DNA from: Erythrobacter sp. KY5
Lineage (GTDB): Bacteria; Pseudomonadota; Alphaproteobacteria; Sphingomonadales; Sphingomonadaceae
Length of the DNA: 64,000 nt
NCBI RefSeq assembly: GCF_003264115.1
Contig: NZ_CP021912.1
Span: 3,145,001-3,209,000, forward strand
Reading direction: 5' to 3'
Below the pieces are notes generated by a model. That model had not been told where the DNA came from. It saw only the letters and a program-made list of their open reading frames with translations, and ran no database searches. The position numbers and the translations under genes were made by a program. This document shows positions 4,757 to 63,745 of the stretch, piece after piece (position 1 is the first letter of the stretch; each line of letters opens with the position of its first letter).

Positions 4757-6084
4757 TCGATCACGCGCCCGCGCACCATGACCCAGTCGACCTGTTCGAG
4801 CACGGTCGCATCGCTGATAGGATTGCCATCAACCGCGATGATGTCAGCCGAATAGCCCGGCATCAGCCGACCGATCTGGTCGCTCATCCCGAGGATGTCG
4901 GCAGCGACAGTCGTAGCGCTGGCAAGCGCATCGCGGCTCGACATGCCGCCGCGGATCATCAGGCGAAACTCGCCTGCGTTAAGTCCGTGGGGGAAGACGC
5001 CCGCATCGGTGCCGAACGCAATACGCACGCCGTTTGCACGGGCACGTTCGACAATGGTGTCAGCGACCTTTGCAACTTCTCGGATCTTGGCTTCGACCAC
5101 GGGCGTGTAGAAGCCCTTGCCAAGGTTCTGGCGAATGCCCTCGAATGCCATGAGAGTGGGCACCAGCGTCGTGCCGCTTTCATTCATCGCCCGTGCGGCC
5201 GCGTCGTCGATGTAAGTGCCGTGCTCAATCGTATGCACCCCGGCGCGCGCCGCAGCCTCGATCCCGCGCGCACCGTGAGCGTGCGCTGCGACCTTGAGGC
5301 CAAGGCTTTCGGCGGTGTCGACGATCGCCTTCATTTCGTCATCGGAGAAATGCGCTTCGAGCCCGCGGCCCTGCTGCGAGAGGACGCCGCCGGTTGCGGT
5401 GATCTTGATAAGGTCAGCGCCATATTGCGAGGCGAGCCGCACCTTGGACGCGCACTCCACCGGGCCGGTACAGGTGAAGCCTGAATCGAGCGCGTCGTTC
5501 ACATGCTCGACGAAACCGTTGGTGTCGCCATGCCCGCCGATGATGGAGATCGTGCGCGCGCTGGTCACAACGCGCGGTCCCGGAGCAAGCCCTTCGGCGG
5601 TCGCGCGGCGTAGCATCTGCGTCACCTGATCCGTTCGCGAACCCAGGTCGCGGACGGTGGTAAAGCCTGCAAGCGCGGTGATACGCGCGTTCTTCGCAGC
5701 GATCAGGGTGAAGTATTCAGGCGGGGTGGTCGCCGCACGCCAAAACTCGCCCGAAGGATCGCCGGACAAATGCGTGTGCAGGTCGATAAGGCCGGGCAGG
5801 ACCGTCTTGTCGGACAGGTCGATATAATCCCACACCCACTCGCCGGCCTCATTGGTCGCAGCCGCTTCATAACCGCGCGCCTGATCGCTGTCGGCGGCGA
5901 CGATATCGTGGATGCGGCCATCCTTGACGATGATGTAGCTGGGCCCGGATGGCTCGTTCGCTGCATCGGTGATCACGCTGCCCGCGTCGATCAGCGTCTC
6001 GGCGAAGGCTGGCGCTCCGGCCAGCGCCGCCAATCCTGCGGCAGTTCCAACAAGCGCGAACCGAATGGTCTTGAGCAGTCCCAT
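4753..6084 (-). CDS. Exported metal-dependent amidohydrolase
   Basis: This 443-residue enzyme has a signal peptide ending near AFAE. Amidohydrolase-superfamily metal ligands are in order: LIDLHTHLSG (HxH), DLIKITATGG (candidate bridging Lys), KVAAHAHG, HTIEHGT and the catalytic Asp in IAFGTDAGVFPHG. The composition resembles the Xaa-Pro dipeptidase/imidazolonepropionase-like branch of secreted amidohydrolases, so cleavage of a dipeptide or other cyclic or linear amide in the periplasm is likely; the substrate is unknown. It is the first gene of the three-gene hydrolase operon. It is divergent from an S9 peptidase gene, and both may act in peptide scavenging. Confidence 0.85.
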   Translation of the reverse strand: MGLLKTIRFALVGTAAGLAALAGAPAFAETLIDAGSVITDAANEPSGPSYIIVKDGRIHDIVAADSDQARGYEAAATNEAGEWVWDYIDLSDKTVLPGLIDLHTHLSGDPSGEFWRAATTPPEYFTLIAAKNARITALAGFTTVRDLGSRTDQVTQMLRRATAEGLAPGPRVVTSARTISIIGGHGDTNGFVEHVNDALDSGFTCTGPVECASKVRLASQYGADLIKITATGGVLSQQGRGLEAHFSDDEMKAIVDTAESLGLKVAAHAHGARGIEAAARAGVHTIEHGTYIDDAAARAMNESGTTLVPTLMAFEGIRQNLGKGFYTPVVEAKIREVAKVADTIVERARANGVRIAFGTDAGVFPHGLNAGEFRLMIRGGMSSRDALASATTVAADILGMSDQIGRLMPGYSADIIAVDGNPISDATVLEQVDWVMVRGRVIE

Positions 6085-6100
6085 GTCTTTCTCCCTGCTT

Positions 6101-6118
6101 CTCCTGATCCCTCAGGAG
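6101..6118. promoter_or_regulatory. Inverted repeat in the divergent promoter region
   Basis: CTCCTGA (6101-6107) and TCAGGAG (6112-6118) are perfect complements separated by TCCC. The element lies 17 bp upstream of the amidohydrolase start, within the 164-bp region shared with the divergent S9 peptidase gene. It could be an operator or a 5'-leader hairpin. Confidence 0.35.
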
Positions 6119-6248
6119 CAGGTGATGCCGGTGTCCAGCGGCCCTGACAACCCCTACCCGTTAAGCGCGCTCGACATTTGCGATTCATCCGGTGGTCGCT
6201 ATGACGGCACGCATTGACTAAAATTTGAGAGGACTGAACGACAAACCT

Positions 6249-8321
6249 ATGAACCGACTGACCGTTGTTACCGCCGCGCTGTTCGCGACCGCTTCGCTGA
6301 CCGCCACCGCACATGCCCGCCCGATGACCCCCGAAGACGTTGCTAAGATCGAAAGCGTTGGCGCCATCGCCATTTCGCCCGACGGTATGCGCATCGCCTA
6401 CACCACCGGCAGCCTGCCTGACGTCACCGAAGGCGAGGACAATGGCGGCATCAAATCGCAGCTCAGCATTGCGACCGGCCCGGACATTGCGCGCCAGTTC
6501 CTGCCAGAGGATGTGTCGCCGGGCGATGTTGCCTTCTCGCCCGATGGCCGGATGCTGACCTTCACCTGGTCCAAGGACGACGAGGACGCAGCGGTATGGG
6601 GCATTCCCGTTGACGGCGGTACCTACATGAAGCTCGCTGCGATCGAGGATTCGGGCGTTCGCGATTACCGTTTCAGCCCCGATGGCCGCACGATCTACAT
6701 GATGGTCGGCCCGGCCAAGGACGAACAGCGCGAGGCGCAAGCCAAGGGCGGCTTCACGAGCAAGGTCTATGAGGAAGAATTCCGCCCGGCTCGCATGTTC
6801 GCCGCCAACGTGATGATGAACGGCGAGATTGACGACGAGCCGCGCGAAATCGCTTTGCCCGGTTATGTCTCGGCATTCGACATCGCGCCTGACGGATCGT
6901 TCGGCATCATTGAGACAACGCCGACCCCGCTGGTCGACGACAGCTACACCTCCAAACGGGTCAACGTCATCGACCTTGCCAGCGGCGATGTGCGCGCCGT
7001 GGTCGAAACGCCGGGCAAGCTGGGTGATGTCGAGATTTCGCCTGATGGTTCGCAGCTTTCGCTGATCGCGGGCATCGATATGAACGATCCGGCTGCGACC
7101 ACGCTTCACCTTGTTGACACAGCGACGGGCGATTACCGGGCCATCAATGCGGGTGAGCCGCTTGCCACCGTCGATGCAGAATGGATGTCCGACGGGCGCC
7201 TGATGACGGTTGTGCATCGCGGTGTTCAGTCCGAGGTGCACGTGCACAATGCCGATGGCACCCTCGCCGAAGTCATTGATCCGGGCGAGCTGATCCTCAC
7301 CGGCGTCGAAGCGGCAGGCGACCGGGTCGCCTTTACCGCCAGCGCTCCGCAGCATCCGACCGAGCTTTTCGTCTGGAACAACGGCGCTTTCGAACGCTGG
7401 ACGCAGCATAATGAGTGGCTGTCGGACATCACCTTCGGCGAACAGCGCGCCTACACCTTCACCGCAACCGACGGTCAGGAAGTCGAAGGCGTGCTGATCC
7501 TGCCCGTAGGCGGCGTGGCGGCGGGCGGCGCCCCGACGATCATGAATGTCCATGGCGGGCCGGAAGCGCACGATTCGAACGGTTGGCAGACCGCCTATTC
7601 AAAGCCGGGTCATGTGGCAGCGGGTCAGGGCTATGCCGTGTTCCTGCCAAACTATCGCGGCTCGACCGGCTATGGCACCGCGTTTTCAAAACAGCATCAG
7701 GGCCGCTACACCGACCCTGAATTCCGTGACATTGTCGATGCGAAGAATGCGCTTGCCGCTGACGGCATCACCGACCCTGATCGCACCGGCATCACCGGCG
7801 GATCGTATGGCGGTTATGCAAGCGCCTGGGGTGCGACCTATTATTCCGCTGAGTTCGCAGCGAGCGTCATGTTCGTCGGCATCTCGGACCAGATCAGCAA
7901 GTTTGGCACGACCGACATCCCTTACGAGATGTACAACGTGCACAGCCTCGCCTGGCCGTGGGATAACTGGCAGAAGATGCTTGAGGTTTCGCCGATCTAC
8001 TACACCGAACGGGCCGAAACACCGCTGCTCATCATGCATGGCGAAGAAGACACGCGCGTCGATCCGTCGCAGTCGATGGAGCTTTATCGCTTCATCAAGG
8101 TGAGAAAGCCCGACACGCCGCTGCGTCTCGTGTTCTTCCCTGGCGAAGGGCACGGCAACCGGATGGCTTCGCACCGCTATGACTACAACCTTCGGATGAT
8201 GGAGTGGTTCGACACCTATCTGAAGACCGGCGACCGCGATGCGGAAATGCCGCCTGCGCGCCCGCAACTGGCCGAAGGCGCCAAGGGTGCGAGCGCTGAA
8301 GAGGACGACAGCGAGGACTGA
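6249..8321 (+). CDS. Secreted S9-family prolyl-oligopeptidase-like peptidase
   Basis: This is a 690-residue serine peptidase from the ATG at 6249, which gives a clear signal peptide ending THAHARP; an upstream in-frame TTG at 6225 would only lengthen it. The first ~400 residues show WD/PD40-type beta-propeller repeats (ISPDGMRIAY, FSPDGRMLTF, FSPDGRTIYM, ISPDGSQLSL). The C-terminal alpha/beta-hydrolase domain has the nucleophile in GGSYGGYAS (Ser at about residue 519), Asp in EEDTRVDPSQ and His in GEGHGNRMASHRYD. The family removes dipeptides or acyl-amino acids from short peptides. Relatives in sphingomonads include lasso-peptide isopeptidases, but nothing here ties this gene to the lasso precursor 53 kb away. 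Confidence 0.9.
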   Translation: MNRLTVVTAALFATASLTATAHARPMTPEDVAKIESVGAIAISPDGMRIAYTTGSLPDVTEGEDNGGIKSQLSIATGPDIARQFLPEDVSPGDVAFSPDGRMLTFTWSKDDEDAAVWGIPVDGGTYMKLAAIEDSGVRDYRFSPDGRTIYMMVGPAKDEQREAQAKGGFTSKVYEEEFRPARMFAANVMMNGEIDDEPREIALPGYVSAFDIAPDGSFGIIETTPTPLVDDSYTSKRVNVIDLASGDVRAVVETPGKLGDVEISPDGSQLSLIAGIDMNDPAATTLHLVDTATGDYRAINAGEPLATVDAEWMSDGRLMTVVHRGVQSEVHVHNADGTLAEVIDPGELILTGVEAAGDRVAFTASAPQHPTELFVWNNGAFERWTQHNEWLSDITFGEQRAYTFTATDGQEVEGVLILPVGGVAAGGAPTIMNVHGGPEAHDSNGWQTAYSKPGHVAAGQGYAVFLPNYRGSTGYGTAFSKQHQGRYTDPEFRDIVDAKNALAADGITDPDRTGITGGSYGGYASAWGATYYSAEFAASVMFVGISDQISKFGTTDIPYEMYNVHSLAWPWDNWQKMLEVSPIYYTERAETPLLIMHGEEDTRVDPSQSMELYRFIKVRKPDTPLRLVFFPGEGHGNRMASHRYDYNLRMMEWFDTYLKTGDRDAEMPPARPQLAEGAKGASAEEDDSED

Positions 8322-59912: not shown

Positions 59913-60869
59913 ATGCCCCAATCCATGCCTCCAGTTGGCTTCGGCCTTTGGAAGATCCCTCGCGAAGACACCGCAGCAAGCGTGGTCGAGGCGGTGCACG
60001 CAGGCTACCGCCATTTCGACAGCGCAGCCGATTACGCCAACGAGGCCGAGACCGGCGAAGGTCTTGCCGAGGCGATGGCGGACGGCCATGTCACCCGCGA
60101 CGATCTCTGGATCACCTCCAAGCTGTGGAACACGTTCCACGCGCCCGACCATGTGGAGGAAGCGTGCCGCAAGACGCTCGCCGATCTTCAGCTCGACTGT
60201 CTCGACCTTTACCTGGTCCACTTCCCGATCGCGCTTGAATATGTGCCGATCGAGACGCGCTATCCGCCTGAGTGGCTGCACGATCCGGACGCTACCGAAC
60301 CGGTCATGAAGCCCGCCAGGGTTCCGCTGCACCGGACCTGGGCGGCGATGGAGGCGCTCGTCGACAAGGGGCTCGTGAAACAGATCGGCGTCTGCAACTA
60401 CAACTCCGCGCTGTTGCACGACCTGATGACCTATGCCCGCATCGAACCGGCGATGCTTCAGATCGAGGCGCATCCGTATCTGACGCAAGAGAAGCTGATC
60501 CGCTGTGCGCAGGGTTATGGCATTGATGTCACCGCCTTCTCCCCCTTGGGCGCGCAAAGCTACTTTGAGCTCGGCATGGCCGACGAAGGCGAGAGCCTGC
60601 TTGGCGCTGCGCCGGTGATGGTGGCAGCCCAGGCTCACGGCAAGACGCCCGCGCAAGTGCTGCTGCGCTGGGGCGTGCAGCGCGGGACTGCGGTGATCCC
60701 CAAGACCTCGAAGCCGGAGCGGATGCGCGAGAACCTCGACATCTTCGACTTCGAGCTTTCGTCCGTCGAGATGGCCGCGATCAGCGCGCTCAACCAGGAC
60801 CGCCGTTTCAACGATCCCGGCGTCTTCACCGAGGCCGCCTTCAACACCTTCCACCCGATCTATGACTGA
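59913..60869 (+). CDS. Aldo/keto reductase
   Basis: A 318-residue NADPH-dependent TIM-barrel enzyme. The catalytic tetrad is readable: Asp in HFDSAADYANEAE (about residue 43), Tyr in the same segment, Lys in ITSKLWNTFHAP and His in LYLVHFPIALEYVP. NADPH-binding residues appear in AVIPKTSKPERMRENLDIFDFELS. It resembles aldose or xylose reductases. It starts 3 bp after the Gfo/Idh gene and overlaps the dioxygenase start by 8 bp, so the three are an operon probably acting on one sugar or sugar-derived aldehyde. Confidence 0.88.
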   Translation: MPQSMPPVGFGLWKIPREDTAASVVEAVHAGYRHFDSAADYANEAETGEGLAEAMADGHVTRDDLWITSKLWNTFHAPDHVEEACRKTLADLQLDCLDLYLVHFPIALEYVPIETRYPPEWLHDPDATEPVMKPARVPLHRTWAAMEALVDKGLVKQIGVCNYNSALLHDLMTYARIEPAMLQIEAHPYLTQEKLIRCAQGYGIDVTAFSPLGAQSYFELGMADEGESLLGAAPVMVAAQAHGKTPAQVLLRWGVQRGTAVIPKTSKPERMRENLDIFDFELSSVEMAAISALNQDRRFNDPGVFTEAAFNTFHPIYD

Positions 60870-61785
60870 GACACCGACGAGCGAGTTTCCCGGCATCATT
60901 CCGGGCGGAGGCGATCTGGCCGCGTTCCTTGCGGCCAACAGGGGCGCGGTCAATGCCGCGCTTGCCGATGCGGGAGCGTTGCTGTTCCGCGGTTTCGACG
61001 TGCCCGACCCGCAAGCGTTCGACGCCGCGGTCGAGGGGTATGGCGAACCCGGCTTTACCTACGAGGACTCGCTTTCCAACGCGGTGCGCACCAATGTCAC
61101 GCCGCGCGTTTTCACCGCCAATGAAGCCCCGCCCACGACCGAGATCTTCCTCCATCACGAGATGGCGCAGACCCCGCTCTATCCGTCCAAGCTGTTCTTC
61201 TATTGCGAGATCGCACCGCAAGCGGGCGGCGCAACGCCGCTGTGCCGGTCCGACTGGGTGCTCGAACGTCTGGCCAACGAAGCGCCGGGCTTCGTGTCGC
61301 GTGTCGAGGCAGAGGGCGTGCGCTACACCAATGTCATGCCGGGCGACGACGATGCGGGATCGGGTCAGGGGCGCAGCTGGCGCAGCACCTTGAGCGTTGC
61401 GGATCGCGACGGAGCCGAAGCGCGGCTCAGGCAACTTGGCTATGACTGGGAATGGCTCGATGATGGCAGCCTTCGGGCAACCACGCCGAGGCTGGACGCC
61501 GTGCGCGAGCTTCCCGATGGTCGCCGCACCTTCTTCAACCAGCTGATCGCCGCCTTCCGGGGCTGGGCCGACAGCCGCAACGATCCGAACCGTGCGATCA
61601 CGTTCGGCGATGGATCGCCGATAACGAGCGATGACATGGCCCCGGCCATCGCGATCGCGGACGAGCTGACCAATGACCTTGCCTGGCAGGCGGGCGACGT
61701 CGCGCTGGTCGACAACTTCCTCGTCATGCATGGCCGCCGCCCGTTCGAGGGCAAGCGCCGGGTGCTCGCCAGCCTTGTGGCCTGA
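60862..61785 (+). CDS. TauD/clavaminate-synthase-like Fe(II)/2-oxoglutarate dioxygenase
   Basis: A 307-residue non-heme iron oxygenase. The metal ligands are His and Glu in FLHHEMAQTPLYPSKLFFYCE (an HxE pair as in clavaminate synthase) and the distal His in LVDNFLVMHGRRPFEGKRRVL. GGATPLCRSDWVL is the characteristic strand after it, and the 2-oxoglutarate Arg is likely in the GRRPFEGKRR region. It hydroxylates or desaturates an unknown substrate. It is last in the three-gene plus-strand operon and convergent with the lasso-precursor-like gene. Confidence 0.85.
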   Translation: MTETPTSEFPGIIPGGGDLAAFLAANRGAVNAALADAGALLFRGFDVPDPQAFDAAVEGYGEPGFTYEDSLSNAVRTNVTPRVFTANEAPPTTEIFLHHEMAQTPLYPSKLFFYCEIAPQAGGATPLCRSDWVLERLANEAPGFVSRVEAEGVRYTNVMPGDDDAGSGQGRSWRSTLSVADRDGAEARLRQLGYDWEWLDDGSLRATTPRLDAVRELPDGRRTFFNQLIAAFRGWADSRNDPNRAITFGDGSPITSDDMAPAIAIADELTNDLAWQAGDVALVDNFLVMHGRRPFEGKRRVLASLVA

Positions 61786-61793
61786 TCGCCGCG

Positions 61794-61931
61794 CTAGAAG
61801 CGCGAGCGCTGGATCGCCCCGTCCCGAGCGCGGGTGAAGCTTCCCCCGGTGAGGTTGCGGACCGTGCCGAGCCTTTGCAAGCGCGGGCGTGTGTAGCGCC
61901 GCTTTGAGCGAGGATCCTTCGTAGATGACAT
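61794..61931 (-). CDS. Lasso-peptide precursor-like small protein (orphan)
   Basis: A 45-residue gene with GGAGG 6 bases before its ATG. Residues 13-30 read Y-T-R-P-R-L-Q-R-L-G-T-V-R-N-L-T-G-G, an exact match to the lasso leader pattern YxxPxLxxxGxxxxxTxG. Cleavage after Gly29 (Thr at -2) would give a 16-residue core, GSFTRARDGAIQRSRF, with Gly1 amine and Asp8 side chain placed for an 8-residue ring. The core has four Arg. No RRE (B1), protease (B2) or asparagine-synthetase-like cyclase (C) is in the window, so it is an orphan. It lies between the convergent dioxygenase and the upstream symporter. The family call is by motif only; production is unproven. Confidence 0.72.
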   Translation of the reverse strand: MSSTKDPRSKRRYTRPRLQRLGTVRNLTGGSFTRARDGAIQRSRF

Positions 61932-62011
61932 TAGCGACCTCCAGTTCGAGATTCGCCCCCGTCACCATTGTACGCCCGCCCGTTTCGCTCACAATCCGGC
62001 CAGGCGCCCGA

Positions 62012-63745
62012 TCAGGCACTCTGGCCCGCTTTGCTACCGGCCCGTCGTAAGCTTAACGCCCATAACGCGATATTGCCCGCAATCAGCGCTCCCACCAGCA
62101 TCGCAAAGGTTAACGATGGCCCTTGCGGCGATGCCGCGCCGAGCGGGGAGAACAGCAGATAGGTGGCGACCACGCAGCTGAACAGAGTCACCGCCAGCGG
62201 CCTTGCGAAAGGCCACGGCGTCAGGTCCACCTGCTCATTTCGGGTGAACTGCCATGGCGTCTTGCGCGGGGCGAGCCAGCCGCAGGCGAGCATGATGCCG
62301 ACCTCGATCACAAACAGGATCGCATATTGGTGGAGGAAGTGGATCGTCACCACGTCGTCGAACGCGAAGCGCAGCAGGCCGTATGCGATAACGTGGAAGA
62401 CGATCACGATCTTCGCGCCCAATGCCGGAACCCGCGCCGTGAACAGACCGACGATCACGATCACCACGGTGGGTATGTTGTAGAAGCCGGTGAAGATGCG
62501 GATGATCTGCCACAGCCCCTCGGGCGAGAACCACAGGAGCGGTGCGACCACGAAGCTGAACAGCGCGATCACCACGCTTGCGATCTTGGCGACCCGCACC
62601 AGCTCGGCATCGCTCGGCAGCGCGCCGTTCACGCTCTGCCTTGCCGGGCCGTACACGTCGAGGCTGAACAGCGTTGCTGCACTGTTAAGCAGCGAGTTGA
62701 AGGACGAGAACACCGCGCCCAGCAGCACGGCGAGGAAGAAGCCCGACATCCATAGTGGCAGCACGTCGCGGATCAGGCGCGGATAGGCCTCGTCGATGGT
62801 GCCAAGGCCGGGGCCGTACATGTGGAAGGCGATGACGCCGGGGATCATCATCAGGAACGGGACCATGATTTTGAAGAAGCCTGAAAGCAGCACGCCCTTC
62901 TGCCCCTCTGCCAGCGACTGCGCGCCGAGCGTGCGCTGGATCACGTATTGGTTGGTGCACCAGTAGAACAGGTTGGCGACGATCATGCCGGTGAACAGCG
63001 TTCCGAACGGCGTCGGCGCGTTTGCATCACCGATGGCGTTTAGCTTCTCGGTATGCTCGCTGCCGAGCGTCGCCAGCCCTGCGCCAAAGTCGCCGCCGCC
63101 CAGCGCGATCAGCCCGAAGACCGGCACCGCAATCCCGATGATGAGCAAGCCCACGCCGTTGAGCGTATCCGACACCGCCACCGCGCGAAGCCCGCCGAAG
63201 ATCGCGTAGATCGCCCCGATGCCTCCGATCGCGATAACCGTGACCACCAGCGCTTCAAAGTTGCCAAGGCCTGTCAGCTCAGGCACGTCGAAGAAGGCGA
63301 TCACCGCAAGGCTGCCCGAGTAGAGCACGCTGGGGATCGTCACGAGGCCATAGCCGAGCATGAACAGCACCACCGACATGCGCCTCACCACGGGATCGAA
63401 CCGGTCGCCGAGGAACTGCGGCAGGGTTGTGAAGGCGCCGGCGAGGTATCTGGGCAGGAAGATGAGCGCCATCGCGATGGTTGCGACCGCCGCCGTCACC
63501 TCCCAGCCCATGCTCGATAGGTTGTATCCGTATGCAGAGCCATTGAGCCCAATCAGCTGCTCTGCCGACAGGTTGGTCAGCAGCAGCGAACCGGCGATGA
63601 AGGTCGCGCCCAGCCCGCGTCCGGCGAGGAAGTAGCCGTCCTTCGTCTCCGCACTTCCGCGCGTCTTCATCCAGCTGATCCATCCGACCAGCGCCATGAA
63701 CGCAATGCAGGTGCCAAGCGTGAAGGCGATGTTGGTTCCCGTCAC
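62012..63745 (-). CDS. Sodium:solute symporter (SSS family)
   Basis: A 577-residue inner-membrane transporter with about 14 helices. SSS features include ETKDGYFLAGRGLGATFIAGSLLLTNLSAEQLIGLNGSAYGYNL (helices 1-2), FFLAVLLGAVFSSFNSLLNSAATLFSLDVY and the conserved long helix 3-4 region FLPRYLAGAFTTLPQFLGDRFDP. It resembles SGLT-type sugar or inositol carriers. The sugar-oxidoreductase genes downstream on the other strand suggest a sugar substrate. A GTGTAACAT sequence lies 20 bp before the start. Confidence 0.86.
   Translation of the reverse strand: MTGTNIAFTLGTCIAFMALVGWISWMKTRGSAETKDGYFLAGRGLGATFIAGSLLLTNLSAEQLIGLNGSAYGYNLSSMGWEVTAAVATIAMALIFLPRYLAGAFTTLPQFLGDRFDPVVRRMSVVLFMLGYGLVTIPSVLYSGSLAVIAFFDVPELTGLGNFEALVVTVIAIGGIGAIYAIFGGLRAVAVSDTLNGVGLLIIGIAVPVFGLIALGGGDFGAGLATLGSEHTEKLNAIGDANAPTPFGTLFTGMIVANLFYWCTNQYVIQRTLGAQSLAEGQKGVLLSGFFKIMVPFLMMIPGVIAFHMYGPGLGTIDEAYPRLIRDVLPLWMSGFFLAVLLGAVFSSFNSLLNSAATLFSLDVYGPARQSVNGALPSDAELVRVAKIASVVIALFSFVVAPLLWFSPEGLWQIIRIFTGFYNIPTVVIVIVGLFTARVPALGAKIVIVFHVIAYGLLRFAFDDVVTIHFLHQYAILFVIEVGIMLACGWLAPRKTPWQFTRNEQVDLTPWPFARPLAVTLFSCVVATYLLFSPLGAASPQGPSLTFAMLVGALIAGNIALWALSLRRAGSKAGQSA

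Follow-up and report, generated by a model that had tools for sequence, protein, structure and literature searches.

A 45-codon gene standing alone between two unrelated metabolic genes, here called A2, is very probably a functional second lasso precursor, matured in trans by the single lasso machinery of its genome about 225 kb away. We base this reading on sequence comparisons within the genome and among its relatives. Clustering of lasso precursors with B and C genes is usual, but the chemistry does not demand it. The window analyzed here is a stretch of 64,000 nucleotides from an Erythrobacter-group bacterium, bases 3145001–3209000 of a single 3,311,272-base contig, for which an earlier note had proposed an orphan lasso precursor.

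The A2 gene and the remote lasso cluster

The A2 frame, MSSTKDPRSKRRYTRPRLQRLGTVRNLTGGSFTRARDGAIQRSRF, lies on the minus strand, with its ATG at 61931 and its stop at 61796–61794. The coordinates 61794–61931 given by the earlier note are exact; the strand, which it did not give, can now be added. On the plus strand, the same bases contain no open frame. The features of this region are as follows.

60862..61785, plus strand: TauD/TfdA-family dioxygenase, slot neighbor (PF02668; found next to empty slots as well)
61794..61931, minus strand: A2, orphan lasso precursor gene, 45 codons plus stop (NF033521, positional orthologues, comparison with Erythrobacter sp. NAP1)
61797..61844, minus strand: A2 core GSFTRARDGAIQRSRF, with a predicted Gly1-Asp8 ring (invariant Gly1, Ser2, Arg7, Asp8; synonymous-only changes versus NAP1)
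61845..61931, minus strand: A2 leader, residues 1–29, predicted cut after T28-G29 (NF033521 match to residues 13–31)
61938..61942, minus strand: GGAGG ribosome-binding site of A2 (from the sequence; GGAG kept in NAP1)
61967..61994, minus strand: promoter-like TTGTGA-16-TACAAT (comparable element at this position in 5/8 orthologues)
62012..63745, minus strand: sodium:solute symporter, the other slot neighbor (NF007790, PF00474)

Every residue that had been read from this frame was confirmed. GGAGG precedes the start codon at a distance of 6 nt, the leader carries Y13, P16, L18, G22, T28, and G30, and the core starts with Gly and has Asp at position 8. We infer the cut after T28-G29 from the Thr at position −2. 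The count of four Arg in the 16-residue core holds, but such a content is nothing unusual within this family, where Arg7-Asp8 is the rule and the orthologue of E. longus (L180) reaches the same count of four.

A six-frame search of the window gave a single occurrence of the strict motif Y..P.L...G.....T.G, against 0.005 expected from order-1 simulated windows. In a profile search, a motif check that the earlier note had suggested for this frame, NF033521 (lasso_leader_L3) matches A2 at 19.4 bits, which only just passes the cut-off of 19; in the whole genome this model passes at two places only, A2 and C1:120772-120828. A2 aligns with the other precursor of the genome, A1, at E 2.4e-7, with 54% identity across 37 aa. 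By the available sequence tests, A2 is a lasso precursor whose layout is unusual in being unlinked. It has the YxxPxLxxxG leader motif with Thr at −2 and a core with Gly as its first residue and Asp in the 7–9 range, and B1 (RRE), B2, and C are all present in the genome. What A2 lacks is the usual clustering with B and C genes: the distance to the nearest B2 and C is ~225 kb on a circular contig and ~3.1 Mb on a linear one. Since the NCBIfam model NF033521 already names proteins with such a leader, the precursor type is known, and the novelty lies in its conserved remote slot.

The earlier note had proposed looking through the whole genome for B1, B2, C, and further precursors; that search returned one full cluster and A1. 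Whole-genome searches with PF13471 and with NF033537 found exactly one B2 gene, and this gene sits in a complete lasso cluster (locus L032, G000:C1:116271-123389) together with a nucleotidyltransferase (PF14907, NTP_transf_5), an ABC exporter, a PqqD-type RRE, a kinase, A1, and an AsnB-like cyclase C. Profile scores were 71.5 bits for PqqD (B1/RRE), 63.7 bits for NF033537 (B2), and 150.9 bits for Asn_synthase (C). The cyclase carries SGGLDS, and B2 has candidate Cys, His, and Asp residues. The kinase is a P-loop protein of the HPr-kinase kind, named from its GLSRSGKT motif and its position; it has no Pfam match. The enzyme set looks intact. The core of A1 is GSGTSFRDGAVTNTRF, and A1 and A2 have in common VRNLTGGS (leader end VRNLTGG), Gly1, Arg7, Asp8, and a core length of 16.

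From this common leader and these core residues alone, we infer that A2 would be recognized by the RRE, B2, and C of L032. In the scheme that we propose, A2 would be transcribed from its own small promoter. Following established lasso enzymology, the discrete RRE (B1) would bind the YxxPxLxxxG leader, B2 would cleave after T28-G29, the AsnB-like C would close the ring around the tail by linking Gly1 with the side chain of Asp8, and the ABC transporter would export the product. Further groups may be added by the kinase and the nucleotidyltransferase; possible phospho-acceptors in the A2 family are the invariant Ser2 and, usually, a Ser or Thr close to the tail.

The TauD/symporter slot in related genomes

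As the earlier note had claimed, no lasso enzyme adjoins A2, whose neighbors are the TauD-family dioxygenase and the sodium:solute symporter. We searched for this TauD in 114 genomes of the genus and found it in 43. Of the 43, 12 have a lasso-leader frame in the slot formed by TauD and the symporter, and in most TauD-bearing genomes without such a frame the two genes nearly abut. A gap of 229 bp in one genome (L088, G099) contains no recognizable precursor. Separately, the TauD of G085 lies in two frames, as if frameshifted (L104, G085:C1:3302719-3303620). Since TauD lies next to A2 and 2-oxoglutarate enzymes act on some RiPPs, one might suppose that A2 owes its maturation to enzymes that have nothing to do with the remote cluster, with the dioxygenase as a dedicated tailoring enzyme. 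However, TauD adjoins the symporter in many genomes whose slot is empty, so it is not tied to A2 and is not a dedicated tailoring gene, and a second B2 is absent from the genome. We therefore regard this explanation as extremely improbable.

A short A2 occupies the identical slot in eight species, including this one. Its core is GSFTRARDGAIQRSRF both here and in NAP1, GSATRARDGAVTRSRF in E. longus, GSGSRARDAGTQTTRFV in G023, GSATVGRDGAVTSSRNSPGGG in G115, GSGSVGRDGAIANSRNTPGGR in G123, GSGRVGRDGAIGFRNTPGGR in G113, and GSGTVGRDGAVGFRNTPGGGGAR in G126. Across 11 aligned A1 and A2 rows, the leader Y, P, L, and G, Thr(−2), Gly1, Ser2, Arg7, and Asp8 are invariant. The genome under study thus has one B2 and two precursors, and seven other species have a matching layout. 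That one gene is kept at one spot in related species suggests that a single enzyme set may serve several scattered peptide genes. The genome has a complete lasso cluster, and none of the eight positional orthologues departs from the leader motif, Gly1, or Asp8; the orphan-precursor reading of the earlier note is therefore supported. Neither of the two observations that the note had set against itself, a lack of lasso enzymes and a lack of conservation of these residues, holds.

The slot and the cluster also go together. Every one of the eight short-slot genomes has an L032-type cluster whose A1 carries the same leader, and all 12 occupied slots belong to genomes with B2. We counted such clusters in 14 of the 43 genomes: the eight with a short slot, five more examined gene by gene, and G043, counted by an A1-type match only. 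In G043, the A1-type precursor within the cluster contains a TAG in frame, inside the matched stretch (L166, G043:C1:82629-82754). The chance that all eight short-slot genomes would fall among the 14 is P 2.1e-5 with kinship ignored, a value that is optimistic given the relatedness of the genomes and the repeated changes of the slot. To explain the short-slot state, the TauD tree needs roughly six changes, two of them forced by well-supported branches, which implies repeated gain or loss. Several genomes have the cluster with an empty slot; A2 is therefore dispensable.

The codon comparison with NAP1, a check on synonymous bias that had also been proposed, shows that the leader end and core of A2 are under purifying selection. 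In codons 22–45 there are nine base differences, all of them synonymous (chance ~1e-5), and the two cores are identical at the protein level. Codons 2–21 have 32 differences, including 11 replacements. In addition, five of the eight orthologues have the element TTGNNN-16-TANNNT at 63 to 69 nt upstream of the start, whereas shuffles gave a mean of 0.3, with 0 of 2000 reaching five. Together, the synonymous-only changes and the positioned promoter-like element argue that A2 is a used, separately transcribed gene.

These data bear on two other explanations. First, A2 could be a decaying relic of a former local cluster or of an A1 duplication, neither made nor processed now. The slot is indeed empty in many relatives, its state has switched repeatedly on the tree, and the N-terminal part of the leader has diverged freely. 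A relic would not be expected, however, to differ from NAP1 by synonymous changes only in codons 22–45, to retain its start codon, leader motif, Gly1, and Asp8 in eight species, or to keep a promoter-like element in five orthologues, and we consider this explanation very unlikely. Second, A2 could be made and bind the RRE or B2 but stay uncyclized and, linear and with its leader still attached, act on the A1 pathway as a regulator, decoy, or competitor. The leader end is the best conserved part of A2 and is the same as in A1, and every short-slot genome has the A1 cluster. But a pure decoy has no need of an invariant core Gly1, Ser2, Arg7, and Asp8 or of a core identical to that of NAP1, which makes this role highly improbable. 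Maturation of A2 as a lasso peptide by the remote cluster is the reading that we retain.

Peptidase_S74 fusions and further dispersed precursors

In four genomes, G009, G019, G118, and G044, the slot is occupied by a longer frame of 121–130 aa (L217:4109(-), L218:5308(+), L219:5283(-), and L036). Its order is lasso leader, a GS...ND core with Asp8, a Gly/Met-rich stretch, and then Peptidase_S74, a self-cleaving type of domain, matched at 26.5 and 34.3 bits (cut-off 22). On the TauD tree, these four genomes group as a single clade (support 99/97). In another genus, three genomes have the fusion within a lasso cluster, beside C and kinase genes (L263, L264:8410-8769(-), and L265). All of the S74 fusions have an invariant Ser and Lys spaced five residues apart, the spacing of the S587/K592 pair that MYRF needs for self-cleavage (PMC3742440). 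The predicted structure of a fusion is of low confidence (mean pLDDT 55.6), and a Foldseek search with this model gave no meaningful match; the S74 assignment thus rests on Pfam and the Ser/Lys pair. Self-release of the lasso core by the S74 domain is our hypothesis. An S74 profile running past the A2 stop in the genome under study overlaps the antisense of TauD and was judged to be chance.

We offer a broader reading tentatively, as one that could well be wrong: in Erythrobacteraceae, one enzyme set may mature precursors kept in distant, conserved slots, and the leader/core–Peptidase_S74 fusion, which is the slot precursor of one clade and the in-cluster precursor of another genus, may have its S74 domain cut off by the Ser/Lys pair. 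If true, the fusion would be a new way of trimming or presenting a lasso peptide.

Further precursors were also noted. G111 and G127 have further remote precursors (L196:5001-5117 and L194:5001-5117, with cores GSANVGQDGALGMTMNP and GSANRGSDGALGMTMNP) beside a SAM-methyltransferase-like gene, 5280-6402(+), with no B2 or C near them. A third precursor of G127 (L193:5001-5093, core GSANRGNDGALGMTMNP) has two genes that look recombinase-like by sequence at a distance of ~500 bp and may be mobile. In G049, whose listed completeness is 100%, there is a lasso-like precursor, GSNGPHGDGGGSKRAGTGPK, but PF13471 has no match (L266; L213:4938(+)). Two adjacent lasso precursors with two Cys per core, GSCAFLADSFVGAPGDGGVFINCP and GSCGFDADTLFGVSPAGNDMGFGC (L210:5684(+) and 6121(+)), lie beside a cyclase gene ~400 kb from any B2. 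Precursors of G075, G044, and G009 (L210, L211, and L212), although far from any B2, were rejected as orphans because each has a C gene alongside.

Mining for precursors beside B and C genes would miss unlinked lasso precursors such as A2, which are also too short for the gene-length cut-offs in common use. Should a single set of lasso enzymes serve dispersed precursors, then lasso diversity is undercounted, and the natural A1/A2 pairs of eight species would demonstrate enzyme tolerance.

Comparison with known systems

Neither an unlinked lasso precursor nor a lasso–S74 fusion is described in the full-text literature that we searched, which omits most subscription papers, and the structure database copy searched has no structure of the A2 family. 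The A2-family leader aligns with the TbiA/TfuA leaders (5v1v, 5v1u, and 6jx3) over YxxPxLxxxG and Thr(−2), at E values of 0.056 to 0.8 that are weak alone.

In gene content, the L032 cluster matches the bsf cluster of Bradymonas sediminis, which has A, a discrete B1/RRE, B2, C, an ABC exporter, a kinase, and a nucleotidyltransferase (PMC10368454). Unlike the bsf precursor, A2 is unlinked, ~225 kb from the cluster in a conserved slot, and its penultimate leader residue is Thr, whereas that of bsf is Ile. Phosphorylated or glycosylated relatives include paeninodin, SyanA/SyanK, and pseudomycoidin (reviewed in PMC9266682). BsfK modifies Ser3 (PMC10368454), whereas other lasso kinases modify a C-terminal Ser (PMC9266682), a residue that paeninodin has and A2 lacks.

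It is useful to set this arrangement beside the ProcM/SyncM lanthipeptides, whose prochlorosin precursors are scattered singly among unrelated genes, away from ProcM (PMC10783134). Both combine one enzyme set with dispersed precursor genes, but the RiPP class and the enzymes differ, and there are one to three precursors per genome here rather than dozens. The nearest lasso precedent that we found is citrulassin, whose pathway is split over the genome (PMC9266682); there the remote part is a tailoring enzyme, PAD, and here it is the precursor itself.
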